Below are positions 8,689 through 34,183 of a DNA stretch of 41,344 nucleotides, piece by piece. This DNA comes from a virus. The position numbers and the translations under genes are program-made. The stretch spans positions 1 to 41,344 of IMG/VR virus record IMGVR_UViG_3300042981_000127; one strand, 5' to 3'. A model generated the notes under the pieces. The model was given only the letters and a program-made list of their open reading frames with translations. It was not told the DNA's origin and searched no databases. How positions within the stretch are numbered: position 1 is the stretch's first letter; every line of letters begins with the position of its first letter.

Positions 8689-10170
8689 TCACCGTCGGCC
8701 GCGGTTCAGGGCATCTCGTTTGCGCTGGGCCGCGGCTTGTTTTTCGCGCTCTTGCTGGCTGGCGATTCGCTCTTCTGTCACTGGGATGTAGGTCTCGATT
8801 ATGCCGTAACCGAAGGCATCGGCGCAGTGGTCCGCCTGGCGTCCGTCGTGGTCGTCCCGGTCCTCGTTCCAGACCAGGTAACCCAGCTCTTCACCGAGGC
8901 AAGCCGCGTCTTCATACACGAAGATATGGCCAATCGCGAATAGATCATTAATCGTGTGGATCCGCGCGCGCTTAACGCCCATTCCCGACTTCTGCGCCGG
9001 CATCATAGGCACGCCGAAAGAGCCGGCAAAGCTCTCCACCACCTGGAGCGATGCTCCGCCGCCGGAGTCGCCCACGATCGTCCCGACGCTGTAGAGGGTC
9101 TGGAGCTCCCGGATCTTCTCCGCCAGCTTGTCGAGCGGCCAGTGTTGGCGCTTGCAGGCATAGACGACGTGAACCCGCTCGCCTTTCAGAACCTTGATCG
9201 AGCCGTCCTCTTGCGGGTAATGTTCCTCAAACGGCACAAGCCTAAGGATCACGATCGCGGTGTGGTCGTGCCACCCGAAGTCAACGGCCATGACGCAGCG
9301 GCCACCCCACGGCGCGGAGCTCTGCGGAAGAATAATCTTCCCGAAGCTGGAGTAGCAACGGAGCTCGGACGGGAGGCACCATTGGGCCAAGACCTCACGG
9401 CGGAACCGGCTGTCCTCCCGGCTGATATAGAGCTTGTTCTCCAGGTCTTCTTCGATCGAAGCCTCGGCCCTGGACATGGTCCGGCCCTTGTAGATGGCCG
9501 GAGCCTGAAAGATCGGGTTGTCGAAGATCAGCCCAAAGTGGCGGGAGGCGCCGTACATAGGGGAACCGTCGGGCCCGTTTTGGGTGGTGCACTGCCACCA
9601 GAAGTCCGGCTCCGACTCGGCATCGTTGCCCGGCACGGGACCAGGAGTGCCGGAGAGACTGACGCCCGAGCCTGGCTCGCCGCGGTGCTTGCGCAACGCT
9701 TCCCACGCGCAAGATATAACCGCCTCTTTTAGAATTGAGGTCCGGGGGACGCCGCATTCGTCAAAATAGGCGGCCAAGAGGTCCTCCCCGCGGAGCTTCT
9801 GGATCTCGGCTACGTTGCTCATTCCCATGAGGCGCACGGCCCCGCCGGTCGGGAACGCTATGGTATCGCCCACGTGGCGGAACTGGAGCCCGCAGTCCCG
9901 CTGGAGCTGGCGCAAGATGGGGAGTAGAATCTCCCCCGCGCGCGTGATCGTCGGGGCAACGTAGGCCTGCATGGTGCCGGGCCGGGCGTTCTCGATCATC
10001 CGAGTCGCCACGGCCTCGGTCTTTCCGTGCCGGCGGCCCGCCAAGTAGGTAATCAGCGCGGCCCGGTCGCGGATGTAACTACGCTGGATCTGGCTCGCTC
10101 GCATCAGCAAGCGCGGGTTGGTCCCCCCCTGCTGGCGCGAGATCGAGCCGCTGAACGCTGAGTGCAGCAT
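8689..10170 (-). CDS. terL: Large terminase subunit
   Basis: A 493-aa packaging motor. The ATPase part has Walker A (AGRRHGKT, residues 44-51) and Walker B (YFDE, acids D137 and E138), followed by the SLSGTPG coupling motif near 171-177. The nuclease part has D297 (MAVDFGW), D368 (VGDSGG) and D451 (HCADAFGY), the RNase H-like metal site. It translocates DNA into proheads and cuts concatemers. The start at 10170 overlaps the small subunit gene by 92 bp; a later Met (residue 23) is a possible start. It is the last gene of the late operon. The C-terminal tail is rich in Glu, Lys and Arg. Confidence 0.95.
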   Translation of the reverse strand: MLHSAFSGSISRQQGGTNPRLLMRASQIQRSYIRDRAALITYLAGRRHGKTEAVATRMIENARPGTMQAYVAPTITRAGEILLPILRQLQRDCGLQFRHVGDTIAFPTGGAVRLMGMSNVAEIQKLRGEDLLAAYFDECGVPRTSILKEAVISCAWEALRKHRGEPGSGVSLSGTPGPVPGNDAESEPDFWWQCTTQNGPDGSPMYGASRHFGLIFDNPIFQAPAIYKGRTMSRAEASIEEDLENKLYISREDSRFRREVLAQWCLPSELRCYSSFGKIILPQSSAPWGGRCVMAVDFGWHDHTAIVILRLVPFEEHYPQEDGSIKVLKGERVHVVYACKRQHWPLDKLAEKIRELQTLYSVGTIVGDSGGGASLQVVESFAGSFGVPMMPAQKSGMGVKRARIHTINDLFAIGHIFVYEDAACLGEELGYLVWNEDRDDHDGRQADHCADAFGYGIIETYIPVTEERIASQQEREKQAAAQRKRDALNRGRR

Positions 10171-15041: not shown

Positions 15042-15070
15042 ATGGTAACAGGGTTGGGGTGGTTATGCAA
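15042..15070 (-). promoter_or_regulatory. Possible internal late promoter
   Basis: On the - strand TTGCAT (15065-15070) and TACCAT (15042-15047) are 17 nt apart. It overlaps the stop region of the 1,245-aa gene and would give an extra start for the 111-aa gene, portal and scaffold. It is only a consensus match. Confidence 0.3.
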
Positions 15071-18000
15071 GGCCGGCCAGGCCGGAGAACTTGGTGGTGG
15101 CCGACGCGGGTGCGGCAAGGACCGACTCCCCACCGAGGCTCTGTTGCGGAACCTTCTGGCCGGCCGCGTAGGCCTGCGCCATGGTCGAAGTCATGCCCGG
15201 CGAGAACGACGGTCCGGCCACGCCGGGAAGGTCGAAAAGATTGTCGAGGCCTCGAAGAGTCTCGAACGGAATCTTTTGACCTGCCTGGCCAACCTGTTTC
15301 AAGACCTCGGCTCGAAGGCTGCCGTAGATGTCCGGGTGGACCTCCCGCAGCGCGCGGATCTGCGTGGGCGTGGCGTCTCCCGTCGCGACGTCGTAGACGA
15401 CGCTCCCCGGGTTGAATACGCCGTCCCACATGGCGGCCCACTTCATGACCGCGAGGCTGTCCGGCGGGATCCCGTCCGGGCGCGCCATGCTGATCCCGAC
15501 GCTTGGAGGCGCGTTGGCCAGTAGGTATTGCACGCCGATCTGCACGCGGGCGACCACCTTGGCATATAGGTCCTCGTGGCCTCCGTCAGCGATCGGACCG
15601 AACGTGTCGACCATGCCGCCAACGAAAGCCTGCGGATCCTCGTTGACCTGCTTCAGGTCCTCGATCTTGTTCTGGAATGCCTGGCCTATATCCTTGGCGC
15701 CTTCCTTGAACCGTTCGGCCAGCGGCGGGAGCTTCGGTGGTCGACTCTCTTTCGAAACCAGCCCGAGCGCGGCTCGCTCCTGGATCACCCGATTGTTGTC
15801 TGCAATCTCGGCCAGTGAGTCAGTCACGGGCGTTGCTGCAAACGCTTCGGTCCCACCGAAAGAGACCGCCAAAGCAACCGCGAGCGTGGGCAGGGCAAGT
15901 TTCAGCGCCTGTAATCGCCTGCGCATGTGGGCGGCCTCAGTTGTGATCTGTTCCGGAGTCATCGTGGGCTGATGCTTCCGAAGTAGCGGCTCAAAGCCAC
16001 CGGCCTCCGTCGCACTAGCCTCTATACGAGAGATCCCATCCTGCATCAACACCCTCACCTCTTCCTGTGATAGCCGGTCGATCACTTCTCCGGGTGGGGC
16101 AATCCCTCGGGACATTCCCACCCACGCTTCCTCTTTTTCGCTCGTTACCGACGCCTTCAGTCTCTCCCGAAGGTGCGGGCCAGGCAGCCGGCGCAGTTCC
16201 TTCTGCAGGGAGCCCTCTTGGCCCTGCGCCCTAAACCACCCGGCCATCTCGGCGTTGATTCCCGCCTCGCCGCCGTCGATCATTAAGGTTCGGCCCGTGG
16301 GTAGGTGCACCATGGTGTTTCCCGCGTTGCGACCGCTATCCCAGTTGCCCAGCACGATATCTGCTGGGATGCTGCGTGCGTAGTCTACCTGCACATCTTT
16401 GGGTAGTTTGCTCCAGTCGGGAATGCGGTCTAGGTCCACCCAATCAGGGCCCATATCCAACGACACCGACGCAATCTGCCCCCCTCCCAGCGGCATGGCT
16501 CGAATATTCAACGCATCGCGCCCTAAAGCCCGATACATGGCCTGATTCCCCGCCTCGATCGCCGCCTGCGCGGGTTTGTCACTCACTTTCACCCAATACG
16601 TCTGGCCGTCCGAACCCCGGAACTTCCCTCCCGGGGTGTTCCCCAGCTGCGGGCCGATGCGCTCAAACAGGGGGTTTACAGGCTCGTCTGGACCTGGTAT
16701 CCTTCCCGCATGGCGACGAAACACGGAGATGGGCTCGGGCTGCCCAGGGACCCACCCCTTGGCGCTTTCTTTTACTTTTGCTGCGGGCGCGACTGTTCCG
16801 GCTGCGTCTGCGGACGCGAGCGGCTGATCTACTACCGGTGTTGTCGGTCCACCTACTGCACGTGTGGTGACCGGTTCGAGGCCACTTGCAACATCGCCGG
16901 GTTTATGCATGAAGCTCGCCTGCGCGCGAGCCTGGCTGCTGGGGGCGCCGGAGACGGGCGGGAGTCCGGACTTGGGGGGGATATCGGGGGTGCGCCCACC
17001 GCGCCCGAGGCCCTGCCGGCGAGCTCGAATGATGGCGCCGGCGCCCTCCCGCGTATACTCCGGTAGCGGGGGCGCAACGGGCGGCTCGAACAGCGGCCGG
17101 CCCGTCGCCTTCTCCACCAGCCGGCGGCCGCCCTTCAACGGGCCGCCCACGCCGGGGATTTCTTCGGCCGCCTCAAACAGGATCTCCGCCGTGCCGCGCG
17201 CGCTGTCCTTGGCCGCCTCTTTCGCGATCACGGCGCTCCCGCGCTTCTCCGCCTCCCGCAGCGTGATCAGCTCGTCCCGCAGCGTGCGCATATCGGCGAG
17301 CCCTTGCTGTAGCCGCATGATCGGAGTGGTGCCGACGCTCTGAGCCCCCAGTTCAGTTTTTAGCAACGACATGGCTTCGACCTTGTCGATCCAGGAGCTC
17401 ATGGCGTTCATCGTCAGCTCGAAGTCTCGCGGCTTCATCGCTAGCGCGTGAGCCACCACGTCGCCGCGCACCTTAAACACCGGAACTTCCTGCAGCCCTC
17501 GTCTCATGCGGCCCGCCGCGCCCGGGAGCCGCTCCAGAAACTCATGTTGCCACACCGCGCCCGAGCGGATAATCCCCTCGTCGCCACTCCAGAGCGCGTT
17601 TTCGCCCGCCTGCTTTTCCGCCGCGAACTTTCCCCACGTGGTTAAGTCCTCTAGGTCTGACCGCAACGGCTCCACCACCGCGTCAATGTCGTCAACCACG
17701 CGCTCTGCGTTGATATCCCGTCTAGCGGCCGCTCCGTAGCGTGTGCGGAGCCGATCTAGTGTGCGTTTGGTGCGGTCTGATGCGATAAACAGATCGGACG
17801 GATCTTCAACCGTATAACTGCGGGTGATCTCGTCCACGTGGGCGCGTAACTGGCGAGCGGCGCCTTTTTGCCCGCCCGCCTCCAGCCGGTTCGCTAGATC
17901 ATCTACCGCTCGGATATGTTGATCTGCGAAGTCTAGCACCGCGTCCGGGTCGGCATCGTTCATCTTGCCGGCCAGATCGCTCTTTTTCAGGCTGATGTTG

Positions 18001-18800
18001 TGAACCTCGTCGAACGCCGGCGCGGTGCCCGCGGCCGCGTCCTCGATCGCGTCACCTCCGAAGCGCTCGACCTGCGCGTGGATCTCATCCCGGTTCCGGG
18101 CGTAGCTGCGGACCTCGTCTTCCGTCAGCGGCGGTCGCCTGTCTGGGCCCGAGCCCGCGGCGCCCACCGACCGGCGCGCCTCGGACGTCCGCCGCCCCTG
18201 GGCCAGCGCGTTGCCCGGGTCCTCGGCCGCATCCAGAGTGGAGCGCGGGACGCTGTCCAGGCTACCCCTGACCCGCCGCGCCGCGCCGCGCGCGAGCCGC
18301 CCCGCTGCACTCACCCCGAGGGCCAGCGGGAGGCCCATGACGACGTTCCCCAGCTCGATCCCTCGGCTCTCTTCCCGCGCGTGCTCCGCCTCGATCGCCG
18401 CGCTCTGCGCCACTTCCTCGGCCACCACCCCGCCGATCTGCGCCGCCCGCGCGCTCGCACCCAACCCGCGCATGACGAGCCCCGCAGCGCCGCCACCCAG
18501 CGCCCCGGGCGCGGCCGCGCCGGCGATCTCCGAGAGCGCGGCAAGCGTTGGACTTTGTTCCTGGAACGCCTGGATCTGTCGCTTGTCCTCGGTGGAGTCG
18601 AAGCCGGCGAGCCCGAAAGTCGCGACGTTCGCCGCCGTCTTGCCTGCGGCCGCGGCCTGGTCTGCGATTCCACCGTACCGCTGGAGCATGGCGTAGTGCT
18701 CCGCCGACACGAGCCCGAATTGATCGGTGGCCCGCTGAACTTCAGCGTCTGGAACATTGTTAAACACTTCCCCCGTCTTAGGGTCTACCATCACAGGCAT
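15063..18800 (-). CDS. Large ejection protein with kinase-like domain
   Basis: A 1,245-aa putative internal virion protein. Residues about 85-170 are Ala/Gly-rich with hydrophobic helices, and about 220-560 is mostly helical. Residues about 700-860 resemble a HipA/PI4K-like kinase: a Gly-rich start (NTPGGKFRGSDG), K738 in YWVKV, E749 in the next helix, GNWDSGRNAGN with D821 and N825/N828, and D842 in LMIDGGEAG. Residues 961-990 form a helix like a signal peptide (three Arg, a hydrophobic stretch, EAFAATP). The C-terminal region (GSVVYDVATGDATPTQIRAL) resembles a segment often seen at the end of podovirus ejection proteins. AAGGA precedes the ATG. Such proteins enter the host with the DNA, so a kinase domain could modify a host target from the first moment; that is inference. 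Confidence 0.75.
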   Translation of the reverse strand: MPVMVDPKTGEVFNNVPDAEVQRATDQFGLVSAEHYAMLQRYGGIADQAAAAGKTAANVATFGLAGFDSTEDKRQIQAFQEQSPTLAALSEIAGAAAPGALGGGAAGLVMRGLGASARAAQIGGVVAEEVAQSAAIEAEHAREESRGIELGNVVMGLPLALGVSAAGRLARGAARRVRGSLDSVPRSTLDAAEDPGNALAQGRRTSEARRSVGAAGSGPDRRPPLTEDEVRSYARNRDEIHAQVERFGGDAIEDAAAGTAPAFDEVHNISLKKSDLAGKMNDADPDAVLDFADQHIRAVDDLANRLEAGGQKGAARQLRAHVDEITRSYTVEDPSDLFIASDRTKRTLDRLRTRYGAAARRDINAERVVDDIDAVVEPLRSDLEDLTTWGKFAAEKQAGENALWSGDEGIIRSGAVWQHEFLERLPGAAGRMRRGLQEVPVFKVRGDVVAHALAMKPRDFELTMNAMSSWIDKVEAMSLLKTELGAQSVGTTPIMRLQQGLADMRTLRDELITLREAEKRGSAVIAKEAAKDSARGTAEILFEAAEEIPGVGGPLKGGRRLVEKATGRPLFEPPVAPPLPEYTREGAGAIIRARRQGLGRGGRTPDIPPKSGLPPVSGAPSSQARAQASFMHKPGDVASGLEPVTTRAVGGPTTPVVDQPLASADAAGTVAPAAKVKESAKGWVPGQPEPISVFRRHAGRIPGPDEPVNPLFERIGPQLGNTPGGKFRGSDGQTYWVKVSDKPAQAAIEAGNQAMYRALGRDALNIRAMPLGGGQIASVSLDMGPDWVDLDRIPDWSKLPKDVQVDYARSIPADIVLGNWDSGRNAGNTMVHLPTGRTLMIDGGEAGINAEMAGWFRAQGQEGSLQKELRRLPGPHLRERLKASVTSEKEEAWVGMSRGIAPPGEVIDRLSQEEVRVLMQDGISRIEASATEAGGFEPLLRKHQPTMTPEQITTEAAHMRRRLQALKLALPTLAVALAVSFGGTEAFAATPVTDSLAEIADNNRVIQERAALGLVSKESRPPKLPPLAERFKEGAKDIGQAFQNKIEDLKQVNEDPQAFVGGMVDTFGPIADGGHEDLYAKVVARVQIGVQYLLANAPPSVGISMARPDGIPPDSLAVMKWAAMWDGVFNPGSVVYDVATGDATPTQIRALREVHPDIYGSLRAEVLKQVGQAGQKIPFETLRGLDNLFDLPGVAGPSFSPGMTSTMAQAYAAGQKVPQQSLGGESVLAAPASATTKFSGLAGLA

Positions 18801-22135: not shown

Positions 22136-25100
22136 TTACCTCTGGTTGCGAGCCGGTTGGCGGGTGATGAACTCGTTTGCCTCCACCTCAAGACTTAACA
22201 TATGCAAGCGGCTCCCGCCAGTGTTGGATCCATTCGTGAGGTCGAAGCGCAGGGCGAACCGATCGACCTCGCGCCGGCGCGGGCAAAACACGGACGTGAT
22301 TGGGTCTCCCGAGACGACAGCCGACCCGCTGACCGGATTGACCTTGTTGGCCGCCGTCAGCGCGTCTGTCCCCATGCTCGTCCACGTCTTGCCGTCGTCG
22401 TAGCTGATGAACGCCTCCAGGGTCGAGTCCCCGAGATAGGTCCCCTGGAGGACGACCTTGCACACCGTCCCCTGGCCGGAGGCGGGGAACAGACGGAAGC
22501 TACCCGTTCGAAGGCTAAGCGTGGGCATGGCGCCGGCGCCCGTGCCTGGGCCGGCTTCCTCCAGGTATACGAGCCCGCCCGCGGCGTACGCGATCCTGCC
22601 GTTGTACTCCACGAGGGAGGTTGTCACGCCGATGTTATCGAAGCTCCAAGCGTCGTGGATCAGGTCGTAAACCAGGAGCCCGCCGTCCGTAGGATCGTCG
22701 TCGTCATCCACGACCGCGAAAACCGCTCGCTGGCTTTCGGTGCAGACCGCGGCCGCGCGGATGACCGGGAAGCTTGCCAGGGTGTCCTGAACGCGCTCCC
22801 CGACGAATTCCACAGCGCCCTGGGGCGTCACCCTGTATATCTTGTTCGAGGCCAGCTGGAAGAAGATCCCGGCCGCCGTGTCCACCACCGAGCGCCAGTC
22901 GATGCATCCGCCGTCGCTGTAGATCGCGCGCGGGGTGAAGAATTCGCCCGTGCCGTTGCGCTGCGGCCCGGCGCCGGGGATCTCGTACACCGCGCTGGCC
23001 GTGAAAGCCAGGTAGGTGTCCCCGAAGCCCGAAACGGCCGTCACGCGCTCGGGTAGCCGCGCTTGGTAGGCGAATTCGGTCGAAAAGTCGGCACCCTCGA
23101 TCGGCTCGCCGGGGAATGGGAGCTGGCTGAATACCACGAGGTAGGGATCCGGGAGGCCTCCTAGGATCAATCGGTCGCGCCCGGCCGCAATGAACTTGCA
23201 CGGCGGCAGCGCCACGTTAATGGTAGGCTTCTGGCTCTGGAAGTAGGCGACCGGGCGGATCTCCAGATCGGCATCCGAGGTCGTGTCCTGAATGTCGACC
23301 GGATCGCAGTAGCCGTCGGCTCCCGTCAGCTGGGCAACCTGGCCGACTCGGTAAAACACGGAGTCATTTGGCACGATCCGGTAGAGTACGCTTTGAACCA
23401 GCGAGCCGGTCCCCTGAAAGTCGATGTTGCGCACGCTGCGCGCGGAACGGATCTCCAAGGTGACGTCGTCATTCGAACCTGTCAGCGTCACGTCCGTGAC
23501 GAAACTCGGCTCCGAGCGGTGCACGCGGCCGAGTGCGTCCGTCCACTCATAGATCGCAACATACTTGTAGGCCCCCAGCTGAGTGAGGCTCCCGCTCGTG
23601 CCCTGGGTGATAGAGCTGATCTGCGGGGTGTTCAAGAAACCCGACTCGACGAACCAAACGCCGTCGTAGTACCCCACGAATCCGCCCGCGGTATAGAGCG
23701 CCCCTTGCATCTCGGCCGTTTGCTTGCGCGCCGGTGAGCCACCCTTGAAGCTGATCAGCTGTGGAGTGCCGGGCTGGGTGTTCGAGAGCCCGAGGCCCGA
23801 CTCATCCGAGACCGAGGCCACACCCCAGAAGTCCCCCGCGCCGTCCGTCGCCACGCTGGGGCGGCCGTGGTAGTTCGTGAGGATCGTTTGCGTCATGAAG
23901 TCGGCCACGTTGTAGTTGAACCGGCTCTCCAGCAAAAAGCCCAACTGGGTCCCCAGGATCGTGGTGCCGAACAGCTCCCCTGTGCCTCCGAGCGTGCCGG
24001 TGTGGATCGTGCCGAACCCGAAAGCCTCGTCGAGTGTGTTCCGTTCGACCGTGAACAGCTTCGAATACATGCGCGTTTGCTCGAACACGCCGCTGGCCGC
24101 CAGCTCGTGATCGTCTATATCCCGAAGCGAGTAAACGCTATCGCTCCCTGTGACACCAACCTGGGATTGCACCACGACTCGGTTCGTCCCGACGATTGCG
24201 ATCGCGGGTGCCCCAATCGGGTTGCTGTGAGATGTCGAGGCCCCGATCACGTTCGTTGGCCCTGCGTCGGACGTGCCGTCGTCGGCGTCAAGCGTGCGCA
24301 GAACGACGTTGTTCGTGCTGGAGTTACGCGCGGCGAACACGACCACCGCGCCGTCCGTGGCAATGGCACAGTCCCCCGAAAAAGCCGTGTCCGTGTTCGC
24401 CCACACGGCGGACCCGCTGGTGGAGTAGCGCCGAACCTGGGTGGCGCCCGAGATGGGGAACGCGATCAGATAGTCGGTCGAGCCTGGGATCGAGCATGCG
24501 TCCCACCCCGTCGTTCCCGTCACGGCACCCCCACCGAGCCCGGCCAGGTCGGTCAAGGTCGTCCAGTCGGAAACGCCGGTCGTGTCGAACGTCGCGGCCT
24601 GAATGTCGTCCGCCGTGTTGCGTGCTAGAAGCACGAAGCTATCGCCCGCGGCCACCACCCGCAGTGATCGGACGGATGCGAACTGGGTCGTCCGGACCAC
24701 CACGCCGTTCCGAAGCACGAACGCGCGGCCCAGGGTGTTGCCCACGTCGCACATGCACACGCACACATAGCCGTTAGTGTACGCCACGTCGTGAGAATCG
24801 GCATAGAAGCCGGCCGGCGCCTGCCAAACCACCGTAACATCCGTCATGACGGGGAGGGCGGGGTAGTTGACCGAATCGTCGAACAGACCTTTCCACGTGG
24901 CCGGCTCGCTCTCGCCTAGGTAAGTGTAGACATCTTTGGGGTAGCTCGGGGTGAAGCTTACCGAGGACGGCGCACCAAAGCAGATCAGCCGATCGTCATA
25001 GGTCGTCAGGTCGAAAGCGTGCATGTCACCGCCGCCCGAGATGTACACGTCATTGTCCAACGCAACGTACTGTGGTCGGACCTCCACGCGGCCGTCACGA

Positions 25101-25207
25101 GTGAGCCGCGCGTTCTGCATGAGGCGAAAGCTTCCGTCAGGAAGCACGATTCGGTCGGTCCCCTCATCCTGACCGGCATTGAATGGGACGTCGAAAACCG
25201 TAGCCAT
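22136..25207 (-). CDS. Tail nozzle-like structural protein
   Basis: A 1,023-aa beta-rich protein starting MATVFDVPFNAGQDEGTD. Near the N-terminus it has the LPDGSFRLMQNARLTRDG segment common in podovirus tail tube/nozzle proteins that resemble beta-propellers (T7 gp12 role). Repeats of short strands with Gly/Asp turns fill the rest, and there is no membrane segment or signal. It lies after the fibre and holin-like genes and before the ejection proteins. It probably forms the tip of the tail tube; the specific role is inferred. Confidence 0.65.
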   Translation of the reverse strand: MATVFDVPFNAGQDEGTDRIVLPDGSFRLMQNARLTRDGRVEVRPQYVALDNDVYISGGGDMHAFDLTTYDDRLICFGAPSSVSFTPSYPKDVYTYLGESEPATWKGLFDDSVNYPALPVMTDVTVVWQAPAGFYADSHDVAYTNGYVCVCMCDVGNTLGRAFVLRNGVVVRTTQFASVRSLRVVAAGDSFVLLARNTADDIQAATFDTTGVSDWTTLTDLAGLGGGAVTGTTGWDACSIPGSTDYLIAFPISGATQVRRYSTSGSAVWANTDTAFSGDCAIATDGAVVVFAARNSSTNNVVLRTLDADDGTSDAGPTNVIGASTSHSNPIGAPAIAIVGTNRVVVQSQVGVTGSDSVYSLRDIDDHELAASGVFEQTRMYSKLFTVERNTLDEAFGFGTIHTGTLGGTGELFGTTILGTQLGFLLESRFNYNVADFMTQTILTNYHGRPSVATDGAGDFWGVASVSDESGLGLSNTQPGTPQLISFKGGSPARKQTAEMQGALYTAGGFVGYYDGVWFVESGFLNTPQISSITQGTSGSLTQLGAYKYVAIYEWTDALGRVHRSEPSFVTDVTLTGSNDDVTLEIRSARSVRNIDFQGTGSLVQSVLYRIVPNDSVFYRVGQVAQLTGADGYCDPVDIQDTTSDADLEIRPVAYFQSQKPTINVALPPCKFIAAGRDRLILGGLPDPYLVVFSQLPFPGEPIEGADFSTEFAYQARLPERVTAVSGFGDTYLAFTASAVYEIPGAGPQRNGTGEFFTPRAIYSDGGCIDWRSVVDTAAGIFFQLASNKIYRVTPQGAVEFVGERVQDTLASFPVIRAAAVCTESQRAVFAVVDDDDDPTDGGLLVYDLIHDAWSFDNIGVTTSLVEYNGRIAYAAGGLVYLEEAGPGTGAGAMPTLSLRTGSFRLFPASGQGTVCKVVLQGTYLGDSTLEAFISYDDGKTWTSMGTDALTAANKVNPVSGSAVVSGDPITSVFCPRRREVDRFALRFDLTNGSNTGGSRLHMLSLEVEANEFITRQPARNQR

Positions 25208-33478: not shown

Positions 33479-33532
33479 GCCGCACGGGAGAGCTCGGGAG
33501 ATAGTTGGATGCGGGAGAGGGAGTCGAACCCC
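33479..33532 (-). repeat. 54-bp direct repeat: tRNA 3'-end fragment
   Basis: An exact copy of 33931-33984. On the - strand it contains the T loop (TTCGACT), the 3' T stem, the 3' acceptor strand (TCCCGCA), U73 and CCA, plus 27 bp beyond the tRNA end. The rest of a tRNA is missing here: no TGCGGGA partner is found upstream. It is a truncated duplicate of the tRNA at 33958-34044 and frames the 105-aa gene. Confidence 0.9.
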
Positions 33533-33565
33533 AGCCGGATACAACGCTGGGTCGAGAGAGCGAAC

Positions 33566-33930: not shown

Positions 33931-33984
33931 GCCGCACGGGAGAGCTCGGGAGATAGTTGGATGCGGGAGAGGGAGTCGAACCCC
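33931..33984 (-). repeat. 54-bp direct repeat, copy inside the tRNA
   Basis: The second copy of the 33479-33532 repeat, beginning 452 bp from it. It includes the tRNA T arm and 3' end and continues 27 bp beyond the CCA. Identity stops inside the 5' strand of the T stem. Confidence 0.9.
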
Positions 33985-34044
33985 CCAAGACCTGTGGTCG
34001 GCGGGGTATGAGCCCGCTGTGCTTCCCGGAGCACGTATCCCGCA
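33958..34044 (-). tRNA. tRNA with CAT anticodon and long variable arm
   Basis: On the - strand an 87-nt cloverleaf: acceptor TGCGGGA/TCCCGCA (7 bp), D stem GTGC/GCAC, anticodon stem GCGGG/CCCGC with loop CTCATAC (CAT), a 15-nt variable region with its own GACC/GGTC stem, T stem with one G-T pair, T loop TTCGACT, and CCA encoded at the 3' end. The long variable arm belongs to Leu, Ser, Tyr or Sec tRNAs, while CAT would read Met or, if modified, Ile. One extra base sits between acceptor and D stem. It may be an altered Tyr-like tRNA. Charging identity is uncertain. Confidence 0.65.
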
Positions 34045-34104: not shown

Positions 34105-34154
34105 ACCAATGGGCCGCAGCCCTCACTTTACCAATGGGCCGCAGCCCTCACTTT
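34105..34154. repeat. 25-bp tandem repeat, two exact copies
   Basis: Units 34105-34129 and 34130-34154. Each contains GGGCCGCAGCCC, able to form a small hairpin. They lie directly downstream of the - strand promoter at 34156-34183, so the repeats would be in the first transcribed bases of the tRNA transcript. Confidence 0.95.
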
Positions 34155-34155
34155 C

Positions 34156-34183
34156 AGGATAGCTCGGACGCTGCCAGAGTCAA
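34156..34183 (-). promoter_or_regulatory. Promoter of the tRNA unit
   Basis: On the - strand TTGACT (34178-34183), a 16-nt spacer and TATCCT (34156-34161). It would transcribe the tandem repeat, the tRNA and the 105-aa gene. The sequence around the -10 box (GCTATCCTGAAAG) is repeated in front of the 64-aa gene at 34726. Confidence 0.6.

Follow-up and report, generated by a model that had tools for sequence, protein, structure and literature searches.

Virion-delivered ADP-ribosyltransferases (ARTs) and RNA polymerases are known, and T7 gp0.7 is a phage kinase of host proteins that is made after infection and is of a different kinase type from the one treated below. Effectors of the polyvalent or MuF-fused kind that are delivered by the virion are established (Iyer et al. 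2017, PMC5512222; Iyer et al. 2022, PMC9503650). T4 Alt is a virion-borne, injected ART that modifies host proteins, host RNA polymerase included (PMC5512222; PMC9503650). A polyvalent kinase family has also been described, mainly in phages of Verrucomicrobia-Chlamydia and Bacteroidetes, in which the C-lobe is lost and a conserved His-Asp pair is accompanied by an insert (Iyer et al. 2017, PMC5512222). HipA is a Ser/Thr protein kinase (PMC7180214). Here, we analyzed a kinase-like domain in P0001, a large late-cluster protein encoded in IMG/VR virus record IMGVR_UViG_3300042981_000127. The window is the complete record of 41,344 bases.

A preliminary description of this DNA had proposed a HipA/PI4K-like kinase inside a podovirus virion ejection protein. 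That overall interpretation is supported by the present analysis, while virion location, ejection, catalysis, substrate and timing are parts that we infer. Our preferred reading, to which we assign a probability of about 0.72, is that a HipA/CtkA/PI3K-PI4K-like kinase with its predicted catalytic residue set complete is cargo in P0001, would be ejected with the DNA and would phosphorylate a host target early. Coordinates of all features are given in Table 1.

A kinase-like domain in P0001

Searches with the P0001 sequence alone gave no domain name from Pfam, PHROGs, NCBIfam or the PDB. The best Pfam kinase match was PI3_PI4_kinase (E-value 0.1-0.18), and weak matches to Hao_C and netrin were taken as chance. 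A tblastn search of 50,697 phage records returned five matches, all inside residues 702-872 and none in the rest of the protein (best E-value 7e-4). In these five phages, the domain is found in proteins of about 1,200-3,300 residues, one of which is annotated as an ADP-ribosyltransferase. When IMG/VR was scanned with a five-sequence alignment, a narrow query, 118 loci were confirmed as relatives and 80 of them were retrieved. A profile of 54 non-redundant phage relatives, from which the window was left out, matched residues 712-872 of P0001 with 59.0 bits (E-value 3.8e-17, among 397 open reading frames of the window and 1000 domain shuffles), whereas the best of the 1000 shuffles of the P0001 domain reached 4.3 bits with the same profile. 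This difference rules out a chance motif and confirms that the kinase-like signature in P0001 is real.

The residue numbering proposed earlier was found to be exact: LGNTPGGKF at 719-727, K738, E749, GNWD at 818-821, N825, N828 and D842 in IDGG, with residues 700-860 corresponding to DNA positions 16703-16221. One point had to be narrowed. The loop asparagine had been given as N825/N828, and alignment with the relatives identifies N828, not N825, as the conserved one. Column conservation among the relatives is 100% at G720, G724, K738, N819, D821, the loop asparagine and D842 and 98% at E749, although overall identity between the window domain and its relatives is 18-26% (about 22%). Counted from the catalytic aspartate, the asparagine lies at +8 in most relatives; the window has it at +7, and two rumen metagenome-assembled genome sequences have it at +6. 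Since the relatives' spacing runs from +6 to +8, the shorter loop of P0001 falls within the family range. Retention of the K, E, D, N and D positions in homologues, on which the kinase claim had been made to depend, was seen both in these columns and in two distant homologues of the whole protein, L007 and L137. Because the catalytic residues are conserved in such a divergent member, enzymatic action is supported.

Fold comparison pointed in the same direction. An AlphaFold2 model of residues 690-960 had a predicted local distance difference test score (pLDDT) of 69.6 overall and 84-91 in most N-lobe blocks. When this model was compared with the PDB using Foldseek, Helicobacter pylori CtkA was the top match (E-value 2.7e-4, probability 1.00), followed by VPS34/PI3K, LepB, RIO and aminoglycoside kinases. 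All of the 50 matches listed were kinases or kinase-fold phosphotransferases except one ribosomal complex entry. Another nucleotide-binding fold was rejected because the top fold matches are kinases. The model of a relative, L071, had a pLDDT of 92.7, with C-terminal helices predicted at high confidence, and it matched CtkA with an E-value of 6.1e-8 and a template modelling (TM) score of 0.60; LepB, Escherichia coli HipA and Shewanella HipA with AMPPNP followed, among other kinases. Both models are bilobal, and the glycine-rich loop, Lys, Glu, Asp, Asn and Asp occur in the order of the HipA/CtkA/PI3K-PI4K-like fold class.

Relatedness to HipA was also examined at the profile level. Against Pfam, 22 of the 54 relatives reached HipA_C and 5 reached HipA_2, all below cut-off (best HipA_C E-value 1.1e-3), and any other family was reached by at most two. 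The window itself gave no HipA_C (PF07804) match over the curated cut-off, and neither the 5-sequence nor the 54-sequence profile gave a significant PDB kinase match by sequence. A profile was then compared that had been made from HipA sequences collected out of bacterial genomes. The phage family matched it with an E-value of 4.2e-7 and a probability of 92.7, with the phage lysine and glutamate in register with those of HipA, while 30 column-shuffled HipA profiles gave 0.02 at best and the reversed profile gave 0.34. With the window as master sequence, the E-value was 2.8e-6. The window alone aligned its GNWD with the HipA GN-x-D loop, though not significantly. HipA sequences keep D-x-H-x-x-N and SPAYD, and the phage family instead has NWD-V-V-G-x-x-x-D-N and R-x-D-x-G-G. 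Membership of HipA proper was rejected because the HipA motifs are missing. No HipB-like partner was seen beside P0001, whose flanks are late structural-type genes, in an inspection that included no search aimed at HipB.

The profile and fold comparisons that the preliminary description had called for thus matched HipA and kinases, respectively. Of its label, "HipA/PI4K-like kinase," the likeness in fold to HipA and CtkA stands and membership of the HipA family does not. As modeled, the P0001 domain has a kinase fold that is nearest to CtkA and HipA, and phosphotransfer is predicted.

The fold matches bear on the kind of substrate as well. Another explanation is that the domain is a lipid or small-molecule kinase (PI4K-like, or aminoglycoside- or sugar-kinase-like) that is injected to change a membrane lipid or a metabolite. 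VPS34, PI3K, LepB, aminoglycoside and N-acetylhexosamine kinases are among the fold matches, a hydrophobic segment follows the domain and PI3_PI4_kinase is the window's best Pfam kinase match. However, among solved structures the family comes closest to CtkA and HipA, the latter a protein kinase (PMC7180214), and relatives of the domain lie beside ARTs, which are protein-modifying in T4 Alt (PMC5512222). We therefore consider a lipid or small-molecule substrate unlikely. A host-protein target is supported by the CtkA/HipA fold (PMC7180214) together with the association with ARTs of the T4 Alt kind.

Cassette, carriers and a proposed role

A sibling contig, L001 (IMGVR_UViG_3300042981_000128), has a portal-like protein 94% identical to that of the window, and most of the late proteins that they share are 81-95% identical. 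Its version of P0001 has 49 residues in place of residues 600-989, as seen by BLASTP and the junction alignment. Because L001 lacks exactly these residues, the kinase, the linkers and the hydrophobic segment form one removable cassette. The hydrophobic segment, which comes after the kinase, may be part of the ejection apparatus.

Scans with window and L001 alignments of the termini, portal and terminase found only the contig of L001. A more distant contig, L007 (IMGVR_UViG_3300032144_000025), has a portal 27% identical to that of the window (E-value 1.5e-62), and after L007 was added to the alignments, L135, L137 and L138 were reached. P0001 is homologous to the L001, L007 and L137 proteins at both termini and to the L135 protein at the N-terminus, and the gene adjoins the portal gene in L001, L007 and L137. 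The L007 protein is about 40% identical to P0001 in the N-terminus and weakly similar, but in register, in the C-terminus. In the same middle position, it has a kinase that is the closest relative found for the window domain (32% identity), followed by an ART-like domain. L137 has the same layout, and L135 has an ART-like domain and no kinase. Each of the three ejection-type proteins with a kinase retains the K, E, NWD, N and D positions. The open reading frame just before the ejection-protein gene of L007 (L007:2461-3435) appears glucosaminidase/muramidase-like by eye and is a plausible DNA-entry aid.

The ART-like domain of L007, L137 and L135 was not found with Pfam PF03496, nor convincingly with plain hmmsearch. 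In a profile-profile comparison with the ADP-ribosyltransferases of other family members, it was matched with an E-value of 5.7e-6 and a probability of 85.5, with R, S-T and E-x-E in register, and shuffles did no better than 0.1. Together, L001 without the cassette and the distant homologues, in which an ART-like domain accompanies the kinase or stands in its place, suggest that short-tailed phages can use their ejection proteins as carriers of exchangeable cargo.

These comparisons also bear on whether the domain is catalytic. The kinase fold could serve the ejection protein for binding or structure (e.g. in nucleotide sensing or as a scaffold) and carry out no phosphotransfer, and the divergence of the window copy, its loop one residue shorter and its poorly matching C-lobe would be in line with such a pseudokinase. 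Against this, the catalytic positions are all kept in the window copy, L007 and L137, joint retention of K, E, D, N and D is not what a structural role would lead one to expect, and the sibling L001 has no such domain. We regard a pseudokinase as quite unlikely.

Beyond the ejection-type proteins, 36 relatives were scanned at full length. An ADP-ribosyltransferase exoenzyme domain was present in 13, MuF in 4, phage minor capsid protein 2 (min_cap2) in 2, a head-maturation-protease PHROG in 8 and a portal PHROG in 1. In four relatives (L009, L039, L079 and L082), the kinase lies between a MuF/minor-head domain and an ART. In several relatives, the effector domain is fused to a head protein (MuF or min_cap2), while the carrier in the window is ejection-like and not MuF. 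Many phage contigs encode the kinase domain. Isolates that infect Pseudomonas putida (such as phages Jeremy and Dolphis) or P. syringae are among its carriers, and cellular copies (L089-L100), which may stem from prophages or be secreted effectors, occur in actinomycete, Pseudomonas and methanotroph genomes. A virion-borne kinase of such a fold had been called rare in the preliminary description; this did not hold, as the domain is common in phages and in head-associated proteins, with 118 loci in one narrow scan and several MuF/minor-capsid fusions.

Some further arrangements were noted in the family. A few relatives weakly match the PADLOC candidate defense family PDC-M03A (best E-value 3.8e-5), maybe a related kinase. 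L038, L051, L052 and L054 each have two adjacent open reading frames with one copy of the kinase domain apiece, that is, tandem kinase genes in one phage. In L061 (L061:3-1031), a NUDIX domain is fused immediately ahead of the kinase domain.

We consider it very unlikely that the kinase stays undelivered and acts in the cell that makes the virions, in assembly, in lysis timing or as a toxin-like late protein. P0001 is encoded by a late-cluster gene and so would be made during virion assembly, and over-expressed HipA-type kinases inhibit growth (PMC7180214), but relatives have the domain fused to head-bound MuF/minor-capsid domains and to ARTs of a type that is injected. Delivery is supported by the late-cluster position and by these head-protein fusions.

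We propose that residues of about 700-960 would form a bilobal kinase domain with K738, E749, D821, N828 and D842 as the predicted catalytic set. The conserved N- and C-terminal parts of P0001 would provide packaging and ejection, and at infection P0001 would enter the host together with the DNA. The kinase would then phosphorylate a host target, most likely a protein, as takeover starts, like T4 Alt. In related podoviruses, an ART-like domain accompanies it or takes its place. More broadly, we lean slightly toward the view that there is a widespread, uncatalogued class of virion-delivered HipA/CtkA-fold kinases, which would be cassettes that swap with ARTs in the ejection proteins of short-tailed phages and in the minor-head proteins of other phages and would phosphorylate proteins before phage transcription.

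Several points weigh against delivery of an active kinase by P0001. The C-lobe aligns poorly with the family profile past residue 872, the family motifs after IDGG are partly changed and the C-lobe model is weak (pLDDT about 50-67). The Foldseek E-values of the P0001 model are modest, with TM-scores of 0.3-0.47. The L001 lineage can do without the kinase. Finally, no Pfam or PHROG profile, those of T7 gp15/16 and P22 gp7/16/20 included, recognizes P0001 as an ejection protein, a status that is probable from gene position and from the homologues in L001, L007, L137 and L135.

Late-cluster neighborhood

The late cluster lies on the minus strand in the order tail fiber (PHROG matches), 1023-residue tail-tube-like protein, proteins of 485 and 512 residues, P0001, portal-like, acidic scaffold-like, small-terminase-like (phrog_4102, E-value 0.0027) and large terminase. 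An endolysin-like gene (phrog_465) is upstream of the cluster. The names portal, scaffold and tail-tube are putative: the portal-like and tail-tube/stopper-like proteins have no Pfam or PHROG profile match and no relatives among the 50,697 phage records. P0001 is placed between tail and portal genes whose names are partly inferred. This position and the homologues in other podovirus contigs strengthen the suggestion that P0001 is a podovirus internal protein.

Table 1. Features of P0001 and of neighboring late genes in the window.
Feature	Position	Strand	Basis
P0001, large late-cluster protein, probable internal/ejection protein with kinase cargo	15063..18800	-	Open reading frame, 1245 residues, ATG; homologues in podovirus contigs
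N-terminal scaffold, residues 1-599	17004..18800	-	85% identity with L001; about 40% with L007 over the first ~175 residues
Cassette, residues 600-989 (linker, kinase, hydrophobic segment)	15834..17003	-	Absent in L001 (BLASTP blocks 1-600 and 990-1245; junction alignment)
Kinase-like core, residues 712-872	16185..16667	-	Family profile match; tblastn/blastp matches centered there
AlphaFold2-modeled segment, residues 690-960	15921..16733	-	Foldseek top matches are kinases
Glycine-rich loop LGNTPGGKF, residues 719-727	16620..16646	-	G720 and G724 columns 100% conserved
K738, predicted ATP-binding lysine	16587..16589	-	100% column; aligned with HipA lysine (profile-profile)
E749, predicted K738 salt-bridge partner	16554..16556	-	98% column
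D821 in GNWD (818-821), predicted catalytic aspartate	16338..16340	-	100% column; segment aligns with HipA GN-x-D loop
N828, predicted Mg-binding asparagine	16317..16319	-	Alignment; family column 100% Asn; most relatives have one more loop residue
D842 in IDGG, predicted Mg-binding aspartate (DFG equivalent)	16275..16277	-	100% column
Hydrophobic membrane-span-like segment, residues 963-981	15858..15914	-	Hydropathy maximum within the protein
C-terminal scaffold, residues 990-1245 and stop	15063..15833	-	95% identity with L001; weak, in-register similarity to L007 and L137
Portal-like protein adjoining P0001	12773..14686	-	94% to L001; 27% to L007 (E-value 1.5e-62); named from size, position and synteny
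Terminase large subunit	8689..10170	-	phrog_2, E-value 5.2e-20
Tail-tube/stopper-like protein, 1023 residues, upstream in cluster	22136..25207	-	Named from its place in the cluster and its N-terminal pattern
Two further probable internal virion proteins, 485 and 512 residues	19070..22075	-	Between tail and portal genes; 87-89% identity in L001

Elsewhere in the window, the 3' end of a tRNA-Met gene, together with the next ~35 bases, has a second copy some 440 bases further on (33958-34044 and about 33482-33533, minus strand). This repeat resembles an attachment-site or tRNA-end duplication. Directly upstream of the tRNA, at 34110-34170, the 23-base unit aagtgagggctgcggcccattgg is tandemly duplicated.

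Comparison with known systems

H. pylori CtkA (PDB 3AKJ/3AKK/3AKL) gives the best fold match for the window domain as well as for the family and is of similar size, about 280 residues. In contrast to P0001, it is not a phage protein, and identity is 9-15% with no match at the sequence level. HipA of the HipBA toxin-antitoxin system (PF07804) shares profile homology around the ATP-binding lysine and glutamate, and its GN-x-D loop is in register. It differs in that the phage family has no D-x-H-x-x-N or SPAYD, stays below the profile cut-off and has its kinase as cargo of a large late protein. T7 gp0.7 is likewise a phage kinase, but one produced after infection and of another kinase type.

The polyvalent/MuF-type effectors are similar in that a large late-cluster protein carries an enzymatic effector, and in relatives the kinase of the P0001 family lies between MuF/minor-capsid and ART domains. 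They differ from the window kinase, which is in a podovirus ejection-type protein. The kinase family of Iyer et al. (2017) is set apart by its description, since the P0001 family has C-terminal helices, as modeled for L071, and an NWD without the histidine. In the open-licence literature, we found no paper that places a kinase of the HipA or PI4K type in virion, MuF or ejection proteins, and none that describes delivery of a protein kinase by the virion. The P0001 kinase family has no Pfam family of its own, and its carrier in the window is unusual.

T4 Alt is comparable as a virion-borne, host-modifying protein, although it is an ADP-ribosyltransferase and not a kinase. If our reading is true, the infecting particle carries an instant protein-phosphorylation activity ahead of phage transcription. 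Virion-delivered polyvalent effectors are known; within the open-licence literature, a HipA/CtkA-fold family in virion-type proteins is new.

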